A program made the translations under genes and the position numbers. The notes beneath the pieces are model-generated. The model searched no databases. It worked only from the letters and a program-made list of their open reading frames with translations, and was not told where the DNA came from. A stretch of DNA of 64,000 bases. Origin: Vulcanimicrobiota bacterium (GTDB lineage: Bacteria > Vulcanimicrobiota > Vulcanimicrobiia > Vulcanimicrobiales > Vulcanimicrobiaceae). The DNA is taken from the NCBI GenBank assembly GCA_003151115.1, contig PLWS01000003.1, positions 63,350-127,349 on the forward strand, read 5' to 3'. This document shows, in pieces, positions 11,092-57,024 of the stretch; position 1 is the first letter of the stretch; each line of letters opens with the position of its first letter.

Positions 11092-12591
11092 GTGCGGACT
11101 GATGCGATCCTGATCGCGCGCTTGGCGCATGAAATCCAGGCCGAGTTCGGAGGCGCACGCGTCCGTGACGTGGGTCAGCTCGAAGACGGCCGCGTCGCGC
11201 TCGCGCTCTGGAAGAAGGGCCGCACGCAATTGCTGAGCGCGGACCTCTTCGCACCGACGCCGCTCATAACGCTTGAGAACGGCGAGCTTCCCATCGCGGC
11301 TGAGCCCGGCTTCGTGCGCGCGCTGGGCGCGGCGTTGCGTGGAAAGACGTTGAGCGCGGCGCGCTCGCTCGAGGGAGAACGCATCGTCGAGCTCGAGTTT
11401 GCGGCGCAATCGCGCTTCGGCGTTCCCGAATCCTATCTCCTGATCTTCGAGCTGGTGCCGCGGTTCGGAAATGCGATCCTCGCGAAGGGCGGGATCGTCG
11501 TGGCCGCGCTCAAGGAGTTCCGGCATTCGGGAAAGGCCGGGCGTTCAGTGCGTCCCGGAATTCCGTACGAGCCGCCGCCTTTGCGCGCGGGAAAACCTCG
11601 CGCGCAATTCGCGGAGGAACTCTCCGCCGACACGATCCGCACCGGCGACCTCTACGTCTATCGCGACGGCGAGGGCACGCTGATCCAGGCGCACGTCGTC
11701 CCATTACCCGAATGTGAGGAATCGGCATGCGAGCGGAAATCTTCGCTCCTCCCGCTCCTCTCGGAACTTCGAACGACCGCATCCGCACGCCCGGATTCCG
11801 GCGGCGAGGATAAGGTCCGCACGGCCACGCAGCGGCTGCTCGAAGAACGCGAACGAAAGCTTCGCGCCGAGCTCGCGCGGGTCGAAGCTGCGTTAGCCGC
11901 ATCGGCAACGCGCGACCACCTTCGCGCCCGCGGTGATGCGATCTACGGGGGACTGCACGAACTCGCGCCGGCCGAGCGGCAAGCCGCCAAGGATGAGGCG
12001 GCTGCGGTCTTTGCGCGCTACAAGAAAGCGGGCTCAGCAGCTGCTCACCTTGCGCGGCGGCGCAAATCCGTGCGCAGCCGTTTGGACGAGGTCGAAGAGT
12101 TGCGCTGGGAACTCGAACGCGCGGACCACGATCAGGTTCGCGAAATAGCGGAGCTGGTCAAGCCGCGCGACGCAGGCGCGCCGAAGAGCCGGCCAAAAAA
12201 GCGCGCGCCGATGCAAGGCATGACACAGGCCGGCTCGCGCATTTTCGTCGGACGATCGCCGGCCGAAAATGCGGAGCTGACCTTTCGAATCGCGCGGCCG
12301 AACGATCTCTGGTTTCACGCGCGCGGTCAGCCGGGCGCTCACGTCATTCTGCAACGCGACGATCGCGCAACGCCGTCGGACTTAGACGTCCATGCCGCTG
12401 CCGAGTTAGCGGCGCTGCATTCGAAGGGACGCAACAGCGCGAAAGTCACGGTGGATTACACGCAGCGCAAGCACGTTCGCAAGCGGCCGGGCGCGGCGCC
12501 GGGCTTGGTCTTCTACACGGACGCCGCGTCGATGGCGGTGGAACCGCGCGACTCGATAAACATTGCGTCGCCGAAAGAAAAGAACCGGTAG
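11092..12591 (+). CDS. rqcH: RqcH/Rqc2-type NFACT RNA-binding protein (ribosome-associated quality control)
   Basis: 499 aa. RqcH family members bind stalled 50S subunits carrying peptidyl-tRNA and recruit Ala-tRNA for C-terminal tailing; related proteins were annotated as fibronectin-binding FbpA. It has an NFACT-N domain (~1-200), coiled coils (~245-330, with RKLRAELARVEAAL) and an NFACT-R domain (~370-470) with GRSPAENAELTF, NDLWFHARGQPGAHV and SAKVTVDYTQRKHVRK. The start is GTG at 11092, preceded by AGAGG at about 5-base spacing; a longer ATG at 10981 would run back into the divergent lipoprotein gene. The 3' end overlaps the convergent queA by 79 bases. Confidence 0.88.
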   Translation: MRTDAILIARLAHEIQAEFGGARVRDVGQLEDGRVALALWKKGRTQLLSADLFAPTPLITLENGELPIAAEPGFVRALGAALRGKTLSAARSLEGERIVELEFAAQSRFGVPESYLLIFELVPRFGNAILAKGGIVVAALKEFRHSGKAGRSVRPGIPYEPPPLRAGKPRAQFAEELSADTIRTGDLYVYRDGEGTLIQAHVVPLPECEESACERKSSLLPLLSELRTTASARPDSGGEDKVRTATQRLLEERERKLRAELARVEAALAASATRDHLRARGDAIYGGLHELAPAERQAAKDEAAAVFARYKKAGSAAAHLARRRKSVRSRLDEVEELRWELERADHDQVREIAELVKPRDAGAPKSRPKKRAPMQGMTQAGSRIFVGRSPAENAELTFRIARPNDLWFHARGQPGAHVILQRDDRATPSDLDVHAAAELAALHSKGRNSAKVTVDYTQRKHVRKRPGAAPGLVFYTDAASMAVEPRDSINIASPKEKNR

Positions 12592-13595
12592 CCGCTCTCC
12601 ACCGCATCGCGGTACGCTCGAAAAATGCGGTCGCGCCCCGCAAAGGCGCAGACGAGCACGAGCAGCGTCGAGCGCGGCAAATGAAAATTGGTCAGCAGCG
12701 CGTCAACGACGCGAAACTCGAACCCAGGTTTGATGAACAGATCGGTATCGCCGGCACCAGGCCGCACCGCACCGCTCGCCTGCGCCGATGCTTCCAACGC
12801 GCGGACCACCGTCGTGCCGGCCGCGACAACGCGCCGGCCTTCTTTTTTTGCACGCGCGATCGCGCGCGCGGTCTCTTGCGGGATCGTGTAATATTCGGCG
12901 TGCATCGTATGCTCGTCGAGGCGATCGGTTTGCAGCGGCCTGAACGTGCCCAGTCCCACATCCAACGAAAGTTTGGCGATCTCGACGTGACGGCGCTCGA
13001 GTTCGTCGAATTGTGCTCGCGTAAAATGCAGCGACGCCGTCGGCGCGGCGACACTGCCGGGCTCCCTTGCGAAGATCGTCTGATATCCGGCTTGCGCCTC
13101 GCGCGAGTCTTCGGTTACGTACGGCGGCAGCGGCAGCTCGCCCGCACGCTCGAGGAACGCTTCGAACTCGATGTTGAGCCCCAGTTCTATTTCGCGCACG
13201 CCGTCCGCGCGAACGTCAATGACGGTTGCTTCGCCGAATTCGCCGAATCCGATCCGCTCGCCGGCGCGCAAGCGCCGTCCTGGCTTGGCAAGCACCAGCC
13301 AACGCGACGAACGCGGATCGTAATGTGCTTCATGTGCCGGCCGCAAAAATAGCAACTCGATCTCGCCACCGCTTGGTATGCGTCGCCCGTGTACGCGCGC
13401 GGGAATGACGCGCGTCTCGTTGAGGACGAGGAGATCTCCGGCACGCAGCAGCGACGGGAAATCGGAGAACCGCAGATGTTCGGTCCGGTCGCCGCGCAGT
13501 GCGAGCAGCCGCGACGAATCGCGCGGCTGGGCGGGCCGCTGTGCGATCAGTTCCTTAGGAAGATCGTAGTCGTAAGAGGAAGCGAGTTCAGACAG
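12513..13595 (-). CDS. queA: S-adenosylmethionine:tRNA ribosyltransferase-isomerase, apparent CTG start
   Basis: About 360 aa. It transfers the ribosyl part of SAM to preQ1 in tRNA, forming epoxyqueuosine. The family N-terminus is present in frame upstream of the first ATG/GTG/TTG: YDYDLPKELIAQRPAQPRD, then LLVLNETRVIPARVHG. The first canonical start is a TTG at 13355, about 80 residues too late. The only suitable upstream initiator is CTG at 13595, overlapping the spoIID stop by 8 bases. Other motifs are HTMHAEYYTIP, GTTVVRALE, LLTNFHLPRSTLL and FFSFGDAMFI. Normal QueA ends near DAMFI; here about 14 extra residues extend into the convergent rqcH gene. Function is certain, the initiation site is not. 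Confidence 0.9.
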   Translation of the reverse strand: MSELASSYDYDLPKELIAQRPAQPRDSSRLLALRGDRTEHLRFSDFPSLLRAGDLLVLNETRVIPARVHGRRIPSGGEIELLFLRPAHEAHYDPRSSRWLVLAKPGRRLRAGERIGFGEFGEATVIDVRADGVREIELGLNIEFEAFLERAGELPLPPYVTEDSREAQAGYQTIFAREPGSVAAPTASLHFTRAQFDELERRHVEIAKLSLDVGLGTFRPLQTDRLDEHTMHAEYYTIPQETARAIARAKKEGRRVVAAGTTVVRALEASAQASGAVRPGAGDTDLFIKPGFEFRVVDALLTNFHLPRSTLLVLVCAFAGRDRIFRAYRDAVESGYRFFSFGDAMFIESRGSTAIDAASV

Positions 13596-26800: not shown

Positions 26801-27880
26801 TTACCTTCGCACCAGATCTTGGAGCCAATATGCGAAAAGGCCGCGCGCATCGAACGGTCCGGGAGAGGCTTCGGGATGGAACTGAACGGCTTCGACCGGC
26901 AAGTGCCGGTGCCGAAAGCCTTCGTTGGTTCCGTCGTTGAGGTTGACCATTGTCTGCTCGAGCGAGCTTGGGAGCGAGGCTGCGTCGACGGCGTATCCAT
27001 GGTTGTGCGCGGTAACAATGACCTCTCCATGTTGCAGATTCTTGACCGGCTGATTGCCGCCACGATGCCCGTAGGGCAACTTGAACGTGGTGGCGCCGCA
27101 GGCCAACGCCAACAGCTGATGCCCCAAACAGATGCCGTACATTGGCCGCTTTCCGAGCAGCGAACGCAGCGTTTCAATCGTTTGTGGAAGGTCCGTCGGA
27201 TCGCCGGGGCCGGGGGAGATGAGGATTGCCTGCGGATCGTGGCGCAGAATCTCTTCTTCGGTTGTGTCGTACGGAACCACGGTGACCGATGCGCCGAGCG
27301 CCCCCAGCTCGCGAATGATCGCGCGTTTCACGCCGCAATCGATCAGCACCACTCGCGGACCGCCAGCGACGCCTTTGACCTGTTCGGTGCGCGTTGCCAC
27401 GCTCGGAACCAGACCCTTCGTGTTCGCGCTGCGCACGAATTGCACTAGAAGTTTCTCCGCGCCGTGCAACGCAGATTCTCCCACCGCCAGCGCAGCCCAA
27501 ATCGTTCCGTGTTCGCGCAAAGTAACGGTGATGGCTCGCGTGTCCGCCTCCACCATGGTTGGAACACGCTCCTGGTTCAGCCACGACGGCAGGTCGCTGT
27601 GCGAGGCGTGATGTGACGGATGACGTGCGATGTGTTTGATGACGGCACCCGCAACGCAGGCGCGCGAATACTGGGCGGCTTCCCCTGACATGCCGTAGTT
27701 CCCGATCATGGGAAACGTGAACGTAAGAATCTGACCGGCGTACGACGGATCCGTAAGGGCTTCTTCGTAACCCGTCATGCCCGTGTAGAAAACGGCCTCA
27801 CCTAAAGCGACCCCTTCGCAGTCGAGACCTTCTCCGTCGAAGCGCGTGCCGTCGGCTAAGAACAACGCCGCGCGTTTCAT
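26801..27880 (-). CDS. carA: Carbamoyl-phosphate synthase small (glutaminase) subunit
   Basis: 359 aa. It hydrolyses glutamine and channels ammonia to CarB. The N-terminal CPSase_sm_chain domain (ALFLADGTRFDGEG, EAVFYTGMTGYEEALTDPSY) is followed by a class I glutamine amidotransferase with nucleophile GICLGHQ and the His/Glu pair in AVQFHPEASPGP. The ATG at 27880 overlaps the pyrC stop by 4 bases (ATGA); the longer frame to 27985 is inside pyrC. Between carA and carB lie moxR, DUF58, VWA and pdxH. Confidence 0.96.
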   Translation of the reverse strand: MKRAALFLADGTRFDGEGLDCEGVALGEAVFYTGMTGYEEALTDPSYAGQILTFTFPMIGNYGMSGEAAQYSRACVAGAVIKHIARHPSHHASHSDLPSWLNQERVPTMVEADTRAITVTLREHGTIWAALAVGESALHGAEKLLVQFVRSANTKGLVPSVATRTEQVKGVAGGPRVVLIDCGVKRAIIRELGALGASVTVVPYDTTEEEILRHDPQAILISPGPGDPTDLPQTIETLRSLLGKRPMYGICLGHQLLALACGATTFKLPYGHRGGNQPVKNLQHGEVIVTAHNHGYAVDAASLPSSLEQTMVNLNDGTNEGFRHRHLPVEAVQFHPEASPGPFDARGLFAYWLQDLVRR

Positions 27881-29097
27881 CGCGTACTCCAAGCGGCGAC
27901 GCGGTAGTTCTGCATCACGGCCGAACCCGCCACGATCGTGGCGATTGCACGGCGAGGTAGCGTCATACCGGCGAACGGGGTGCACTTGCCCTTTGAATAA
28001 AATTCCTTCGGATCGACCACCCAGTCGCGGTCGGCGAAGATCGTGACGTCGGCGGGCGATCCCACGACGAGCGTACCTCCGGGCACGCCGAGAATGCGCG
28101 CGGGATTACACGAGAGCATCTCCACGTACCGGCGCAAGGGCAGGTCTGGAAGGGCAAGCGCGTATGCGCCGATCGCGATCTCCAGCCCGCTAAAACCGGG
28201 CGACGTCGTGTCGGCATGCGGCGCGTGGTCGCTCGCGAACGCGTCGATCGTTCCGTTGCGTACGGCCTTGCGCAGCGCCGCGACGTCGTCGGCTGAGCGC
28301 AGCGGCGGATGCACTTTTGCCGCCGCGCCCAAGCCCTCAGCATCCATCCGCGTGAAGACGAGATGGTGCGGCGTAGCTTCGGCCGTGCACGCGACACGGG
28401 CGTGTTTAGCCGACGCAATGGCCTCGAGTGCCGCATGCGTGGAGACGTGGGCGATGTGCCACGGCACCGACGTTGCGCGCGCGATCGCGATGTCGCGCAC
28501 GACGGCCGACGCTTCCGCTGCCGGATCGAACTCGTCACGCTGCTTGATGGCGGCGTTCTCGCAGTGCGTGATGAACGCGCGTCCGCTTTTACCCGCGCGC
28601 AGGGCCGCACTCGTCTGCACTATCGCGCTTTCAATCGTGCTTCCATCATCGCTGAACGCGACGGCGCCGGCGCCGGCGAGACCGGCATAATCAACCGGCT
28701 CTTTCCCTTGCCGGCCATGCGTGATAGCCGCGATAGGATAGACTCTCGCCAAGCCCGCCGCCGCCGCCGCTTCGATGACCCAGCGAACCATTTCGGGCGT
28801 ATCCAACGCCGGATGCGTGTTGGGCATTGCGCCGACGGCGGTGAACCCGCCGGCGACGGCGGCCGCGCAGCCGGTGGCGATCGTTTCTTTTTCGGGATTG
28901 CCGGGCTCGCGCAGGTGCACGTGCATGTCGATAAATCCCGGCGCAACGTAGGCGTTGCGCGCGTCGATAACATCTTCGCTATCCTCCGGGCGCAGCAATT
29001 CGCCGACCTCGCAGACGATGCCGTCGCGAATGCGTATGTCCAATACCGCGTCGATCCGCGCAACCGGATCGACGACGCGACCACCTGCGATAAGAAT
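27877..29097 (-). CDS. pyrC: Dihydroorotase, apparent ATT start
   Basis: About 406 aa. It cyclises carbamoyl aspartate to dihydroorotate. Motifs: GFIDMHVHLREPG (metal His pair), THCENAA, HIAHVSTHAALEAI and FASDHAPH. The family N-terminus (LIAGGRVVDPVARIDAVLDIRIRDG) starts upstream of the first canonical start (TTG at 29043). In frame before it lie only CTT, AAC and ATT after the pyrB stop. ATT at 29097 places the N-terminus where homologues begin and has GGTGG 6-7 bases upstream. I use it as a tentative start; enzyme identity is secure. It overlaps carA by 4 bases. Confidence 0.92.
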   Translation of the reverse strand: MLIAGGRVVDPVARIDAVLDIRIRDGIVCEVGELLRPEDSEDVIDARNAYVAPGFIDMHVHLREPGNPEKETIATGCAAAVAGGFTAVGAMPNTHPALDTPEMVRWVIEAAAAAGLARVYPIAAITHGRQGKEPVDYAGLAGAGAVAFSDDGSTIESAIVQTSAALRAGKSGRAFITHCENAAIKQRDEFDPAAEASAVVRDIAIARATSVPWHIAHVSTHAALEAIASAKHARVACTAEATPHHLVFTRMDAEGLGAAAKVHPPLRSADDVAALRKAVRNGTIDAFASDHAPHADTTSPGFSGLEIAIGAYALALPDLPLRRYVEMLSCNPARILGVPGGTLVVGSPADVTIFADRDWVVDPKEFYSKGKCTPFAGMTLPRRAIATIVAGSAVMQNYRVAAWSTR

Positions 29098-50475: not shown

Positions 50476-51477
50476 TTATTGCGCCTGGGTAAAACCGGGC
50501 GGGACACTGAACAGCGCGTCCGCTTGCGGCTTGGTGAGCCAAAGAACGTTTCCGCGCTGCGTCACGCTTTGGAACTTTCCGGCAGCGTCACCCGACAGCA
50601 TCGTCATGCGGTTGTACATCTCGAGCTTGTCGCCCGTGTGCATCCAATACATGCCCGTCGCGTTCCCGTGCATGGTCGGCTTGCAGCCGCCTTGCACGAC
50701 CATATCGACCGGCGTTGCCGTTCCGCGACCTTTCGGAAGCGGACACATGCGGCGCGGAACCGTGATGTTCGAAACGTAGCGTTCGTTCTCGGCGCCGAAC
50801 GAACCGTTGCTGCACGAGCCGGTGGCGTTCGTCATCGACATTTGCGTCGTGTCGGTGGAACCGTGCGTCGGTATTCCCTGAAGCGTCTTTGCCCCCAGAT
50901 TCACGGCGTTTGACGTGACCGTTAAGTCCATCGTGCCGGGCGCCTCGTTGACCCGCTGCGGCTGCCCCATCGGCTGCTGTGCCGTAACGCACGGCGCGGC
51001 GCTGCCGTTTGTGTTGATAATCTTATACGTCTTGCGCGCAAGATCGAGCTGAATGGCCTGATGCTGCGCGCACTTATCGATGACTGCGGTCTTAGCGACC
51101 ACGTTATCCGTCCGCACCCACCCATTATAATAGGCCAAGCGCGTGAGCGTGCCGTCGGTAAGCGAGAGCTGCATCTGGTTGCCGGCTTCTTCGGCCTGCG
51201 ATGAAGCATTAGTGACCGAGCTCAGCAACCCGCCGAAGAGTCCTCCGCGCCGCGGCGCGGGAGTCGAGGCGACTGTCGCAGGCGCGTCCGCTAAGATCTT
51301 TTGATAGGCGTCGGCGAACGTGCCCGGGGGCGGAGCCGTCGCGGGCGCGAGCACCATACGCGCTATCTCGTCGTACTGAAGACCGACATATTTCGGCGGG
51401 GCGGCCGTTGCGCTGACGATGCTGAGCGTGAGCGCGAAAAAGCAAATGCCGGCTGCCGTAATTGAGCGCTTATACAT
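50476..51477 (-). CDS. Secreted protein of unknown function
   Basis: 333 aa. Signal peptide YKRSITAAGICFFALTLSI (cleavage near ATA-APP). The mature protein has a Pro/Ala/Thr-rich linker, a Gly motif GGLFGGLL, and a C-terminal ~170 residues with five or six Cys (TGSCSNGSFG, RRMCPLPKG, QGGCKPTMHG), probably disulfide-bonded. Expression signals are strong: AGGAGG 4 bases before the ATG. No recognised family. Convergent with the YbhB-like gene and divergent from the next secreted protein. Confidence 0.75.
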   Translation of the reverse strand: MYKRSITAAGICFFALTLSIVSATAAPPKYVGLQYDEIARMVLAPATAPPPGTFADAYQKILADAPATVASTPAPRRGGLFGGLLSSVTNASSQAEEAGNQMQLSLTDGTLTRLAYYNGWVRTDNVVAKTAVIDKCAQHQAIQLDLARKTYKIINTNGSAAPCVTAQQPMGQPQRVNEAPGTMDLTVTSNAVNLGAKTLQGIPTHGSTDTTQMSMTNATGSCSNGSFGAENERYVSNITVPRRMCPLPKGRGTATPVDMVVQGGCKPTMHGNATGMYWMHTGDKLEMYNRMTMLSGDAAGKFQSVTQRGNVLWLTKPQADALFSVPPGFTQAQ

Positions 51478-51558
51478 GCATCCTCCTAAAGTGATAGCAC
51501 CGGGAGAGACCGAAGACTTCCGTGGCAGCTTTTCCGCCCCTACCTCCGGAGGGTCCCA

Positions 51559-52152
51559 ATGCGACGATTACTGCTTATGCTCTCTGCCTTCTCCGCAATT
51601 GGACTGCTGGCAATCCCGCACGGGGCGCGTGCGGCGTCCCCCGCCATCGAGGCAATGACCGACCAGCAACTCAACACATACATCAACTTCGCGGGGCTAC
51701 GCACGCGCATCGACAAGATCGAAACCGTCAAGAGCCCAGACGGCCGGCCAATTTTGCAGAAGGCCGGCGGAACGCCCGACGGTACCGGGTACATCATGGT
51801 TACCGTCAGCCTGCAAAATCCGAGCGCAACCGACCTTATCGGCATTCCCGGAAATTTGCTCGGGTTCGAATTGGCTGATGGGACGCAAATCGACGAGGTC
51901 GGACCCGACGGTTTCTACATTCTACCGAGTCTCAACGACTCGCCAGACTCCCTCCACCCGAAGCAACACATCCAAGTCGTCTATGTGAAAACGAATTGGA
52001 ACGGCCAAGACATCACCAAAATGTTCCTCAAAGTGAACAGCGGGGGAAGCGAAAACGATACGGGCTATAAATACGCCCGCTTCCAAATTCCCAAGGGATA
52101 CGTGACGCAATTGGATCCGGTAGCCACACCCGCGCCTTCACCGGAGCCTTAA
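51559..52152 (+). CDS. Secreted protein of unknown function
   Basis: 197 aa. Signal peptide RRLLLMLSAFSAIGLLAIP then HGARAASP. The mature domain includes YINFAGLRTRIDKIETVKSP, VTVSLQNPSATDLIGIPGN and LKVNSGGSENDTGYKYARFQ, a beta-sandwich-like alternation. The C-terminus is a Pro-rich tail. A strong Shine-Dalgarno sequence (GGAGGG) precedes the ATG. Divergent from the 333-aa secreted protein with 81 bases between. hmgA begins 1 base after the stop. Confidence 0.75.
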   Translation: MRRLLLMLSAFSAIGLLAIPHGARAASPAIEAMTDQQLNTYINFAGLRTRIDKIETVKSPDGRPILQKAGGTPDGTGYIMVTVSLQNPSATDLIGIPGNLLGFELADGTQIDEVGPDGFYILPSLNDSPDSLHPKQHIQVVYVKTNWNGQDITKMFLKVNSGGSENDTGYKYARFQIPKGYVTQLDPVATPAPSPEP

Positions 52153-52153
52153 A

Positions 52154-53305
52154 ACGCCGTCGTATTTCCGGGCCGGCGAACTTCCGCCCAAACGTCATAT
52201 CCAATTCCGGCGGCCCGACGGCGGCTTGTATGCCGAAGAACTCTTTTCGACCAAGGGTTTTGAAAGCGCGTACTCGCTGCTCTATCATCTTCGCCCGCCG
52301 ACCGCGACCTTAGAGGTTCGACCGTGGAAACGCGCGGCAGTCGAACTGCTGCCCAACGAACCGTTACGCAACCGCCATTTTAGAACGGCCGAAATTCCCG
52401 CCGGCAAAGACGCGATTGAAGCCCGCACGCCCGTTCTCGGAAACTCCGACGTCCTCATGAGCGTCTCGGAGACGGCCGCGCCGATGAACTACTTCTACCG
52501 TAACGTCGGCGGCGATGAACTCCTGTTCATTCATCGCGGCCAGGGAACGATCCAAACGCCGTTCGGAAACCTCGAATACCACGCGCGCGATTACGTGCTG
52601 CTGCCCACCGGAACGACGTACAAAATTCTACCGGAATCGCCTACCCGAATGCTTGTTTATGAAAGCAGCGGCATGATCACGATCCCGCGCAAGTTCCGCA
52701 ACGACTTCGGCCAGCTCGAGGAACACGCGCCGTACTACGAACGGGACTTTCGCTCTCCCGTGCTGCGCGCGCCGAACGATGAAACGGGCGAATTCGAAGT
52801 GCGCGTCACCAACGCCGGCCGGAATGCCGTCTACATCGTACAGAATCATCCGTGCGATGTGGTCGGATGGGACGGCTACTGCTATCCGTATGCCTTCAAT
52901 CTCGACGAGTACGCACCGGTCACCGGAAAGCTCCATCAGCCGCCGCCGGCGCATGCCACATTCGAAGCGCCCGGCGCAGCGTTTTGTGCGTTCGTGCCGC
53001 GCATGTTCGATTATCATCCGCTCGCGATTCCCATTCCGTACAACCACTCGAGCGTGGATTGCGACGAAGTGCTCTACTACGTCAGCGGAAACTTCATGAG
53101 CCGCCGCGGCGTCGAGGAAGGCTCGATAACGCTGCACGCAGCCGGCGCCCCGCACGGTCCGCAGCCCGGCGCCGTCGAGGCAAGTTTAGGAAAAACGTCG
53201 ACCGACGAAATTGCCGTCATGGTCGACACCTTCGCGCCACTTCAAATCGCAAGGCCCGCCCTCAAGGTCGAGGACGACAGCTACTTCCGCTCGTGGGTCT
53301 CGTAA
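52154..53305 (+). CDS. hmgA: Homogentisate 1,2-dioxygenase, apparent ACG start
   Basis: About 383 aa. Fe(II) enzyme that opens homogentisate to maleylacetoacetate. The family N-terminus (YFRAGELPPKRHIQFRRPDG) is encoded upstream of the first canonical start (TTG at 52226). Between an in-frame TAG (52121) and that TTG there is no ATG, GTG, TTG or CTG. ACG at 52154 gives a protein starting (M)PSYFRAGEL, with GGAG 7 bases upstream. The cupin core has FIHRGQGTIQTPFG, and the iron ligands fall within YHPLAIPIPYNHSSVDCDE and HAAGAPHGPQPG. Length fits short bacterial homologues. Enzyme identity is secure, initiation is inferred. Confidence 0.93.
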   Translation, partial: TPSYFRAGELPPKRHIQFRRPDGGLYAEELFSTKGFESAYSLLYHLRPPTATLEVRPWKRAAVELLPNEPLRNRHFRTAEIPAGKDAIEARTPVLGNSDVLMSVSETAAPMNYFYRNVGGDELLFIHRGQGTIQTPFGNLEYHARDYVLLPTGTTYKILPESPTRMLVYESSGMITIPRKFRNDFGQLEEHAPYYERDFRSPVLRAPNDETGEFEVRVTNAGRNAVYIVQNHPCDVVGWDGYCYPYAFNLDEYAPVTGKLHQPPPAHATFEAPGAAFCAFVPRMFDYHPLAIPIPYNHSSVDCDEVLYYVSGNFMSRRGVEEGSITLHAAGAPHGPQPGAVEASLGKTSTDEIAVMVDTFAPLQIARPALKVEDDSYFRSWVS

Positions 53306-53306
53306 C

Positions 53307-53687
53307 GTGCTGCCAACCCCCGTGCCTTCGCCCACGATCGATCCGTGCAATCATCCGCCCGCGATCGTCAATAAGGCGCCGTTGAGAAACTACGGAATGT
53401 TTCCAGCGGTCATTTATCCCAGGCGAGGACCGGCGGTGACTGTGGCCGACCCGCTCTTCGGCCAGGCACAACCGCAACGGCTGCCGCTCTCAGCGACGCT
53501 CGACGTGCTCGTTTCGACGGTTGGATCGCCGATGGAAGCAGTCGTTCTTGAGCCCAGCGGGGACTCGTCTTTCGACCGCGCTGCCCTGGACGCCGCGATG
53601 CGTTCAGCGTATTCTCCCGGCAAAACGAATTGCGTCTTGGAACGAATGCATTTCAGTTTCGTGGAAACACTCGGCCCCGCGCTTTAG
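53307..53687 (+). CDS. Small TonB-C-like domain protein
   Basis: 126 aa from GTG at 53307, 1 base after the hmgA stop. The second half matches the TonB C-terminal pattern: DVLVSTVGSPMEAVVLEPSG, DSSFDRAALDAAMRS, then a strand ending FSFVETL. It has no transmembrane anchor, Pro-rich spacer or obvious signal peptide, so it is not a complete energy transducer. It may be a stand-alone periplasmic domain with an unrecognised export signal. It overlaps the convergent fahA by 4 bases. Confidence 0.6.
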   Translation: MLPTPVPSPTIDPCNHPPAIVNKAPLRNYGMFPAVIYPRRGPAVTVADPLFGQAQPQRLPLSATLDVLVSTVGSPMEAVVLEPSGDSSFDRAALDAAMRSAYSPGKTNCVLERMHFSFVETLGPAL

Positions 53688-54934
53688 TGCGCGGGTAAGA
53701 TCATTCCGCTGACGCTGCCGAACCCGATGCGCGGCTTTCCGGGCTCTTCGCAATAGCCGGTCATCGTTACCTCGTCGCCGTCTTCCAAAAAGCTTCGCGT
53801 CTCGCCCGAACGGAGTTCTAGCGGCTTCGTTCCGCGCCAGGTCAGTTCGATCAGACTTCCATAAGAGTCCGGCTCCGGGCCGGAGATCGTGCCCGACGCA
53901 AACAAATCTCCGGGTGATATCGTCGCCCCGTTAGAGGTGGCGTGAGCGAGTTGTTGCGCCACGCTCCAGTAAAGATACTTAGAGTTCGATCGCGAGACGA
54001 CTTCGGCAGTCACATTCTCGCCGCACATCTTCGCCGTCCGGAGCCCGATGAACAACGCGATATCGTAATTCCAGTCTTCGGAAGCGCGAAGGTACGGCAG
54101 CGGCGCGGGCTCTTGTTTCGGAACAGCGGTGCGGTAGGGTTCGAGCGCGTCGAGCGACACGACCCACGGCGAGATCGAAGTGGCGAACGATTTCCCCAGA
54201 AAAGGCCCCAGCGGCTGATACTCCCACGCTTGAATGTCACGTGCGCTCCAATCGTTCACGAGCACCATGCCGAAGATGTGCTCGCGCGCGCGGTCGATTG
54301 GAATCGGATCACCAAGCGCATTGCCGACGCCCGTTACGAATCCGACTTCGAGTTCCGCGTCGAGCATTTTCGTCGGCGCAAACTCCGGTTCGCCGCTTTC
54401 GCTCTTGATCTGGCCGCGCGGCCTTACGACGGGTGTTCCATCGATCACAACCGTGCCGGCGCGCCCGTGATATCCAACCGGCAGCCGCCGCCAGTTCGGC
54501 AGCAGCGGTTCCGTGCCGGGCCGCATAATTTTCCCCAGGTTGGTCGCGTGTTCGAGCGACGAATAGAAATCCACGTAGTCGCGTACTTCGAACGGCATCA
54601 CCATTTGCGCCGAAAACTGCTGTACTAAGAACCTTTCGCGATCCTCTGCGGCTATCGGCGAGGAACTCTGCAGCAGCTCTTGCAGCCGTCTCCGCAAACG
54701 CACCCACGCATCGCGCCCGAGCGCCAACAGCTCGTTCAACGACCCCGAGCGTAGTGCGGCGTTTAGATCGGCGTCATGAAAGAGGCCGGCACGTGAAGCG
54801 ACGTGGACGTCGAAGATCCGATCGCCGATCGCCAGGCCGATATGCGCTCCACCCGGAGCGCGAAAGACTCCGTACGGTAAGTTCTCGAGCGGAAAACCGG
54901 AACCGGCCGGAACGGGCACCCAAGAGCCGGACAC
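53684..54934 (-). CDS. fahA: Fumarylacetoacetase
   Basis: 416 aa. It cleaves fumarylacetoacetate into fumarate and acetoacetate, the last step of tyrosine degradation. The N-terminal SH3-like domain (GVFRAPGGAHIGLAIG) is followed by the catalytic domain with metal ligands in VRDYVDFYSSLEHATN, DAELEVGF and LVNDWSARDIQAWEYQPLG, plus SKYLYWSVAQQLAH. The GTG start at 54934 shares one base with the stop of the upstream 310-aa gene (TAGTG), so they are coupled. No maleylacetoacetate isomerase is seen in the window. Confidence 0.95.
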   Translation of the reverse strand: MSGSWVPVPAGSGFPLENLPYGVFRAPGGAHIGLAIGDRIFDVHVASRAGLFHDADLNAALRSGSLNELLALGRDAWVRLRRRLQELLQSSSPIAAEDRERFLVQQFSAQMVMPFEVRDYVDFYSSLEHATNLGKIMRPGTEPLLPNWRRLPVGYHGRAGTVVIDGTPVVRPRGQIKSESGEPEFAPTKMLDAELEVGFVTGVGNALGDPIPIDRAREHIFGMVLVNDWSARDIQAWEYQPLGPFLGKSFATSISPWVVSLDALEPYRTAVPKQEPAPLPYLRASEDWNYDIALFIGLRTAKMCGENVTAEVVSRSNSKYLYWSVAQQLAHATSNGATISPGDLFASGTISGPEPDSYGSLIELTWRGTKPLELRSGETRSFLEDGDEVTMTGYCEEPGKPRIGFGSVSGMILPAH

Positions 54935-55866
54935 TACCCTATGAATCCGAGCATGGTGAGATCCTCCACCGGTTCGCTAAAGCTGCAGCTCCCGTACGAA
55001 TTGAAGCTGTTCGCTCGCGTGTCGCGCAGGGCTTCTTCGGAGATCGCGATATCTCGCCACCGCAAACGTTCAGAATCGAACGCGAAATGACCGGCATCTT
55101 CGTCTTCGAGCGCCGCAACGACGCTATCTTCGTCTGCTCCCTGACGCACCAGCGCAGCTGCCGCCAGCACGTTCAGGAATCCATGCATGATGAAGCCGCT
55201 TGTTTCATTGTATCCACGGATCGGATGGTGCAGACCGGCCGTCGCTTTAAAGGCAACTTCTTCTTCGGCAGCCGCGCGCAGAAACGTCGCGATGTCGTAA
55301 ACGGGCGGGACCGACGCCGCGGTCAATCCGCCGCAGCGCAGTTTGGCGCGCAGACGGTGCCGCTTCATCGACGCCAACGCGCCCGGCAACAGGACGGCCC
55401 GCCGATCGTCTTTCGGCAGCTCTATATATGAAGGAAGATCGCTCAAGCCGTTTTGCGCCGCGGCCGCGGAATACTGGCCGATGGCCGCATCGTACGTTTC
55501 GCGCTGCGAAAGCGGGCGCGGCAACAGCAACTCTAACGATTCGATCGGAACGCCCGCTTCTTTGTGCGCGGCAATGCGCTGCAGTGACGCCTGCACCGAT
55601 CCAAACCACGTACGCGAATCATCGGCGGTGCCGACGATCACGCTGAGCGGAACCGGCGCCGGCGCGCACTTTAGCAGTTCGCCTACCCGCGATTCGGGCA
55701 CGATGAATCGCGCCATCATCCACGCGTGCGGCCCGCTGCGAGCGCTGCCGTACTCAGCGAGCGCCGCCTCCACTTTCAAGTGCGCCGGCGGAAAGAGCCC
55801 CGCGTAGTCGATCAGGCCGGCAAATGCCGCGCGAACAGCAGCTGAAGACGTCGCGGAGGTGGCCAT
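54934..55866 (-). CDS. Unrecognised protein coupled to fahA in the tyrosine-catabolism island
   Basis: 310 aa from the ATG at 55866 (MATSATSSAAVRAAFAG). Soluble, no signal peptide. Regions that look conserved: FAGLIDYAGLFPPAHLKVE near the start, WMMARFIVPESRVGELL, an alternating beta-alpha pattern through the middle (VPLSVIVGTAD, ESLELLLPRP, LPSYIELPKDD, RAKLRCGG), and KATAGLHHPIRGYN near residue 220. This is compatible with a TIM-barrel-like enzyme, but I cannot name it. It directly precedes and touches fahA and is divergent from hppD (42 bases), so a role in aromatic amino acid breakdown is plausible. Confidence 0.75.
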   Translation of the reverse strand: MATSATSSAAVRAAFAGLIDYAGLFPPAHLKVEAALAEYGSARSGPHAWMMARFIVPESRVGELLKCAPAPVPLSVIVGTADDSRTWFGSVQASLQRIAAHKEAGVPIESLELLLPRPLSQRETYDAAIGQYSAAAAQNGLSDLPSYIELPKDDRRAVLLPGALASMKRHRLRAKLRCGGLTAASVPPVYDIATFLRAAAEEEVAFKATAGLHHPIRGYNETSGFIMHGFLNVLAAAALVRQGADEDSVVAALEDEDAGHFAFDSERLRWRDIAISEEALRDTRANSFNSYGSCSFSEPVEDLTMLGFIG

Positions 55867-55908
55867 ATACAGGGCCGCTTCGGTCGGCTCGCTAAGTGCC
55901 CTTCTGCG

Positions 55909-57024
55909 ATGTCCGCGCTCACTTCCCCAAAAACGCAACCGCTCGCGAAGATCGACTGGGATTACGTCGAGTTCTATACGGGCAACGCCAAACAGGCGGC
56001 GCATTACTATTGCTCCGCGTTCGGATTCGAGCAAATCGCGTACGCGGGTCCTGAAACCGGCGTGAAAGATCACGCGTCATACTTGCTCGCGCAAAACAGC
56101 TTACGCTTCGTGCTGACGTCGAGCTTACTGCCCGACGACGCAATCGCGCGCCACGTCGCGCTGCACGGCGACGGCGTCAAAGACATCGCGATCCTCGTGG
56201 AGGATTGCCGCGCGGCTTTCGCCGCTGCCGTGGCCGGCGGCGCCCGCGTAATCGCCGAACCTGCCGAACTCTCCGACAAGGACGGCCGGATCGTGAAAGC
56301 CACGATCGCCACCTACGGAGACACGGTTCACAGTTTCATCGAGCGCAAGAACTACGCCGGCGTCTTTATGCCGGGTTTTGTCGCTCAGACGAAGACGTTT
56401 CCGCACGTCAGCAAGCCAGGACTGCTCGCGATCGATCATTGCGTCGGCAACGTCGGCTGGGGTGAGATGGATATCTGGGGCGACTTCTACACGCGCGTCT
56501 TCGGTTTCTCGCAGCTGGTCTCGTTCGACGATAAAGATATTTCCACCGAGTACACGGCGCTGCGTTCCAAGGTGATGTCCGACTCCGAACACCGCGTCAA
56601 GTTCCCGATTAACGAACCCGCGCAAGGCAAGAAGAAATCGCAGATCGAGGAGTACCTCGAATTCTACCGCGGCGCCGGCGTCCAGCACATCGCGATCCGG
56701 ACCGACGACATCATCGCGACGATTCGCGCGCTCAAGGAAAACGGGGTTGAGTTCCTCGACACGCCCGATACGTATTACGACGATCTCGAGGCTCGCGTCG
56801 GCAGAATAGACGAAGCGATGCAGATTCTGCGCGACCTGCGCATTTTGGTCGATCGCGACGACCGCGGCTACATGCTGCAGATCTTCACCAAGCCGTTGCA
56901 AGACCGGCCGACGGTTTTCTTCGAGATCATTCAGCGCAAGGGCAGCCTAAGTTTCGGCAAGGGAAACTTCAAAGCGCTCTTCGTTTCGATCGAAAAAGAG
57001 CAAGAACGCCGGGGCACGCTATGA
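55909..57024 (+). CDS. hppD: 4-hydroxyphenylpyruvate dioxygenase
   Basis: 371 aa. It converts 4-hydroxyphenylpyruvate to homogentisate, the substrate of HmgA. Two VOC domains: residues ~15-150 (DYVEFYTGNAKQAAHYY) and ~165-350. Fe(II) ligands are His in AIDHCVGNV, His in VQHIAIRTDDI and Glu in TVFFEIIQRKG. The start is the ATG at 55909, without a clear Shine-Dalgarno sequence. The stop overlaps deoC by 4 bases (ATGA). Confidence 0.96.
   Translation: MSALTSPKTQPLAKIDWDYVEFYTGNAKQAAHYYCSAFGFEQIAYAGPETGVKDHASYLLAQNSLRFVLTSSLLPDDAIARHVALHGDGVKDIAILVEDCRAAFAAAVAGGARVIAEPAELSDKDGRIVKATIATYGDTVHSFIERKNYAGVFMPGFVAQTKTFPHVSKPGLLAIDHCVGNVGWGEMDIWGDFYTRVFGFSQLVSFDDKDISTEYTALRSKVMSDSEHRVKFPINEPAQGKKKSQIEEYLEFYRGAGVQHIAIRTDDIIATIRALKENGVEFLDTPDTYYDDLEARVGRIDEAMQILRDLRILVDRDDRGYMLQIFTKPLQDRPTVFFEIIQRKGSLSFGKGNFKALFVSIEKEQERRGTL

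Follow-up and report, generated by a model that had tools for sequence, protein, structure and literature searches.

A probable ACG start codon for hmgA behind an inserted gene, and further near-cognate starts, in a genus of uncultured Vulcanimicrobiota

The hmgA reading frame and its first codon

Where does translation of hmgA begin when its reading frame lacks every usual start codon at the expected place? In the window (C2:63350-127349 of the genome under study, G000; 64,000 nucleotides), the hmgA frame is closed upstream by an in-frame TAG (52121-52123, plus strand), and from there up to a TTG at codon 25 (52226-52228) it holds no ATG, GTG, TTG or CTG. An earlier note on this DNA had pointed this out and had proposed that the gene starts at ACG (52154-52156), at the position of the initiator methionine. 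Upon re-reading the sequence, we found all of its coordinates correct. The Shine-Dalgarno-like GGAG (52143-52146) lies seven bases before the ACG, the TAA (52150-52152) of the upstream open reading frame (51559-52152) ends one base before it, and a start at the TTG would cost about 24 residues, as had been claimed. By itself, a start-codon gap of ~35 codons is not improbable; it is homology and selection that take the case beyond chance.

Read from the ACG, hmgA spans 52154-53305 on the plus strand (383 codons and a stop). Its product matched the family PF20510 with 46.1 bits (cut-off 20.2) but reached only 62.2 bits against the equivalog model TIGR01015, far under the cut-off of 510.75, and is therefore a divergent homogentisate 1,2-dioxygenase-like enzyme. 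We call it HmgA-like by pathway context only, as genes of the same pathway adjoin it, namely those for fumarylacetoacetase (FAH; 53684-54934, minus strand; TIGR01266, 516.6 bits) and 4-hydroxyphenylpyruvate dioxygenase (hppD; 55909-57024, plus strand; TIGR01263, 460.7 bits). The gene order common across the family is M3-like peptidase, PEBP-like gene, minus-strand gene, hmgA, fumarylacetoacetase, a next gene and hppD, where the names M3 and PEBP were read from the sequence and not from a family search. In the window, the minus-strand gene, which has long accompanied hmgA in the family, lies divergently at 50476-51477 and encodes 333 aa without a Pfam match. A short open reading frame after hmgA (53211-53687), found in some genus members only, matched a TonB C-terminal domain (27.3 bits). 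Further downstream, the called 5' parts of a minus-strand gene (54934-56073, no Pfam match) and hppD overlap, and homology runs across this overlap in many relatives.

To place the first codon, we compared 80 homologous loci fetched from genome contigs; relatives belong to Candidatus Eremiobacterota / Vulcanimicrobiota. At the codon aligned to the ACG, 62 of these loci have ATG and 14 have GTG (76/80 together), which supports the claim that the ACG occupies the position of the initiator. Two loci carry ATG one codon later (L106 and L107) and one is broken by an N gap (L068); these are not real exceptions to the alignment. The remaining locus has ACG itself (L035, isolate fen_1528; the same record as G001/L007). 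G001 represents a second species within the genus, independently assembled, with 88% protein and 80% nucleotide identity in hmgA, and its ACG stands behind the same upstream gene as in the window. The comparison of starts among close relatives that the earlier note had suggested thus yields ACG in one further species and ATG in the other five genus members. Both ACG species keep the GGAG (CCGGAGCC in G001), and their junctions read ggagccgtaagACG in G001 and ggagccttaaaACG in the window, so that stop and start are spaced as TAA-G-ACG and TAA-A-ACG, respectively, with both genes on the same strand. Near the conserved N-terminus, the two species have no near-cognate of ATG in common other than the ACG, and the first ATG, GTG or TTG in the hmgA frame of G001 lies at about codon 46.

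Selection across the junction was read from the differences between the window and G001. Within hmgA codons 2-24, 15 codons differ, 13 synonymously and 2 non-synonymously, and 14 of the 18 substitutions fall at third positions (p 1.4e-4 against 1/3); for codons 2-14 alone the bias is modest (7/11, p 0.04). Upstream of the ACG, it is the third position of the 51559 frame that collects most substitutions, with counts at positions 1, 2 and 3 (TAA at -4 to -2) of 2, 1, 7; 0, 1, 9; and 2, 0, 7. Third-position bias thus holds in the upstream gene to its stop and in hmgA from codon 2, which indicates that translation switches frame at TAA-N-ACG. The conservation of GGAG is no independent evidence, because these bases also encode part of the upstream protein. 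Judging from the same ACG in two species and the constraint on codons 2-24, the proposal of the earlier note gains support, and hmgA is very probably translated from the ACG at 52154.

The inserted gene upstream of hmgA

The gene that ends one base before the ACG (51559-52152, plus strand) encodes 197 aa with a signal-peptide-like N-terminus, and no Pfam or NCBIfam family matched its product. It is present in two of the seven genus genomes, G000 and G001, between the minus-strand gene and hmgA. Both carriers have the ACG start (2/2), compared to none of the non-carriers (0/5), an association of insertion and ACG that the earlier note had not foreseen. G004 (L036) lacks the gene, and the stretch preceding its hmgA ATG is alignable to the sequence in front of the 51559 gene; from this alignment, the divergent intergenic region at 51478-51558 is the presumed promoter of both the minus-strand gene and the 51559-hmgA unit. 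In G002, G005 and G006, the hmgA ATG overlaps the stop of the PEBP-like gene (TGATG or TAATG). Distant homologues of the 51559 gene, about 40% identical, occur in 14 other genomes of the family, on contigs other than that of hmgA where both contigs are listed. Between the two carriers, the gene shows 79% nucleotide identity, like its neighbours (78-80%), and is therefore old. Trees of rpoB (without G006), FAH and M3-PEBP place G001 with G004, and G000 with G002, G005 and G006. We read this history as mostly vertical descent followed by loss in the other genus members; exchange is less likely.

These observations suggest how the ACG could serve. The insertion of an unrelated gene would have separated hmgA from the old divergent promoter, leaving a two-gene unit in which hmgA comes second and starts one base behind the upstream stop. 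A ribosome terminating at the TAA would cover the ACG, the GGAG would hold it there, and reinitiation could follow with the ordinary initiator tRNA (anticodon CAU) through near-cognate pairing of two of the three bases. Termination-reinitiation is established as such (PMC6728339, PMC12548453), and we consider coupling to the upstream gene a reasonably likely means of initiation at the ACG. What speaks against this account is the ACG itself, which should initiate very poorly and be discriminated against by IF3. As IF3 represses non-canonical starts (PMC5472188), the yield of hmgA should be low and IF3-dependent, and it is probably reduced. RNA folding around the ACG did not stand out from that of shuffled sequences (z 0.11 and -1.35). 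A TATAAA-like site before the ACG in the window was dropped as a candidate, as G001 has not kept it.

Probable near-cognate starts elsewhere in the genus

To see whether hmgA stands alone, we surveyed 842 kb of G000 against ~1.3 Mb of G003 and pieces of five other genus members, using a phase-aware test that handles shadow reading frames and upstream genes in other frames, and curated the cases by hand. Among 342 conserved genes, at least 8 have no available ATG, GTG or TTG in two or more species, including hmgA with its ACG in two species. The dihydroorotase gene pyrC (27880-29097, minus strand; L318-L323) appears to start at ATT (29097-29095) one base after the stop of an upstream gene that is pyrB by position and sequence; this ATT is found in 6/6 genus genomes. 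In leuB (G000:C6:77399; L288-L294), an ATT overlaps the upstream stop (ATTAG) in 7/7 genus genomes; an ACG start considered for this gene was rejected, since outgroup alignment shows it to be an old Thr3 codon, with the ATT two codons earlier. For both pyrC and leuB, the other genera that were read have ATG, GTG or TTG available. The gene for release factor 1, prfA (G000:C2:212439, minus strand; L196), has CTG directly after the upstream stop, a codon read in G000 and G003; its frame holds no ATG, GTG or TTG for 65 codons, and six genomes share an open frame of exactly 361 aa. The other cases are a priA-like gene (plus strand, at about G000:C2:36633) with ATT behind GGGAGG in G000 and G003, a glycosyltransferase-like gene that has ATC or GTA/CTA following AAGGAG/GGGAGG, a gene at C2+51393 for which the codon is CTG, and a minus-strand gene on C4 with CTG/CTA one base after a stop.

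Two further genes were seen in G000 only. The gene queA (12516-13595, minus strand; NF001140, 436 bits) lacks ATG, GTG and TTG in the first 115 codons of its frame and would start at CTG (13595-13593), and tmk (G000:C4:80428) probably starts at CTG, with GTG in G003. Outside the survey, infC (L124-L129) has an ATA start behind AGGAG in six genus genomes; a break of infC in G001 turned out to be an assembly gap (N) and no loss of IF3.

Starts at -1 to +1 from the upstream stop occur in 5/8 near-cognate genes versus 8/276 genes with conserved normal starts (Fisher p 4.5e-6). Restricting the comparison to genes with a detected co-directional upstream gene gave 5/8 versus 8/146 (p 9.3e-5). The genus thus seems to tolerate near-cognate starts, mostly those that adjoin the stop codon of an upstream gene. 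That further genes of the genus would have non-canonical starts had not been foreseen by the earlier note either. A genus-specific rise in such starts is likely, the survey having been run within the genus only.

No cause of a general loosening of start-codon choice was found in the initiator tRNA, the anti-Shine-Dalgarno sequence or IF3. The initiator tRNA looks ordinary, with its C1-A72 pair, GGG/CCC anticodon stem and CAU anticodon. The 3' end of the 16S rRNA is GGATCACCTCCTTT, in which the anti-Shine-Dalgarno sequence looks normal; the 16S motifs found read normally, infC is intact, and IF3 can be aligned over its length to solved IF3. Local coupling explains most of the cases without a general loosening. 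We give even chances to a relaxed start-codon selection in the genus, by which at least 2% of conserved genes, including the core genes pyrC, leuB, prfA, priA and infC, would be translated only from ATT, ATA, CTG or ACG, most of them needing ribosomes that arrive from a stop at most one base upstream. The account as a whole, with an ACG start, an insertion, reinitiation and a wider tolerance of near-cognate starts in the genus, appears probable to us.

Alternative explanations and known start codons

Could the true codon be ATG, misread in the assembly? Probable indel errors do occur in G000, where rpoB runs in two frames near C6:878570, and a gene at C2:187894-188537 contains stops that break it in comparison with G003 (either an assembly error or a pseudogene). 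However, the known errors are indels and not C for T, and the other species has the same ACG amid many synonymous differences. The caution of the earlier note about a read error is thereby answered, and we regard such an error as very unlikely. An internal start at codon 16 (ATC/ATT) or codon 25 (TTG/CTG) with loss of the N-terminus is unlikely as well, if a little less so. Codon 16 is indeed near-cognate in both ACG species, but the amino acids of codons 2-15 are kept (YxxAGELPPKRH) with mostly synonymous changes, and the KRH motif is conserved from Vulcanimicrobiota to Firmicutes and Cyanobacteria. Furthermore, no GGAG-like site was seen at the internal starts, and codon 25 differs between TTG in the window and CTG in G001; we therefore rejected it as the start.

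The frame switch at the TAA would be equally compatible with a +1 frameshift that fuses the 51559 protein to HmgA in the manner of prfB, and the GGAG standing before the stop fits this too. Yet the conserved slippery codon and weak stop of prfB are absent: the last sense codon is CCT in one species and CCG in the other, slipped pairing would be poor and worst for CCG, and neither UAAA nor UAAG is a weak stop. Moreover, the 51559 protein looks exported while HmgA should be cytoplasmic, and the arrangement recurs at pyrC, prfA and leuB, where a fusion would be senseless. We consider this reading slightly less probable even than an assembly error. Least probable of all is decay of hmgA, with proper expression already lost in the two species that carry the ACG. 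The loss of its normal start codon would fit, but the frame is unbroken throughout and constrained (of the codons that differ within 101-383, 100 do so synonymously and 31 non-synonymously), and in both species the neighbouring genes of the pathway are intact.

Initiation at ACG, which we favour, has partial parallels. The IF3 gene infC starts with AUU in E. coli and ATC in Streptomyces, as cited in PMC5472188, and sigR of Streptomyces starts with GTC, where repression by IF3 was measured (PMC5472188). Like infC, hmgA is a normal bacterial gene without an ATG, GTG or TTG start, and as in sigR, one member of a gene unit has a rare near-cognate start that only close analysis brought to light. 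For hmgA, too, the conserved N-terminus offers no ATG, GTG or TTG and the codon is conserved in related species (G000 and G001). The AUN codons of infC, however, serve autoregulation, whereas the ACG has a middle-base mismatch and lies behind an upstream stop; sigR does not lie behind an inserted gene, and repression of hmgA is expected only. With termination-reinitiation pairs (PMC6728339, PMC12548453), hmgA shares the strand and a stop and start within about one base, but the coupled pairs described start with ATG, GTG or TTG, while its restart codon is near-cognate. Ribosome profiling in Salmonella revealed CUG and AUU as near-cognate alternative starts (PMC11005335), which likewise shows such initiation in ordinary bacteria; there, they give extra forms beside a normal start, whereas the ACG would be the sole start of hmgA.

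In plastids, ACG starts are edited to AUG (PMC9845219). These genes resemble hmgA in having ACG where ATG is expected but, unlike hmgA, need organellar RNA editing. To our knowledge, no RNA editing of bacterial mRNA starts has been described. In vitro, ACG has been used as a variant start codon in work on IF3 (PMC8266586). A natural bacterial gene with an ACG start was not found in open-access full texts, which is weak evidence of novelty as subscription journals lie mostly outside such a search.

Gene finders that accept only ATG, GTG and TTG would truncate proteins of this kind, HmgA by 24 residues and release factor 1 by 65. From the conserved ACG next to an upstream stop, it would seem that coupling lets even a poor codon serve, and that start codons may degenerate after a gene becomes coupled. 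Taken together, the sequences compared here suggest an unusually frequent tolerance of weak start signals in these uncultured bacteria, and the genus-wide pattern makes start-codon stringency testable across close genera.
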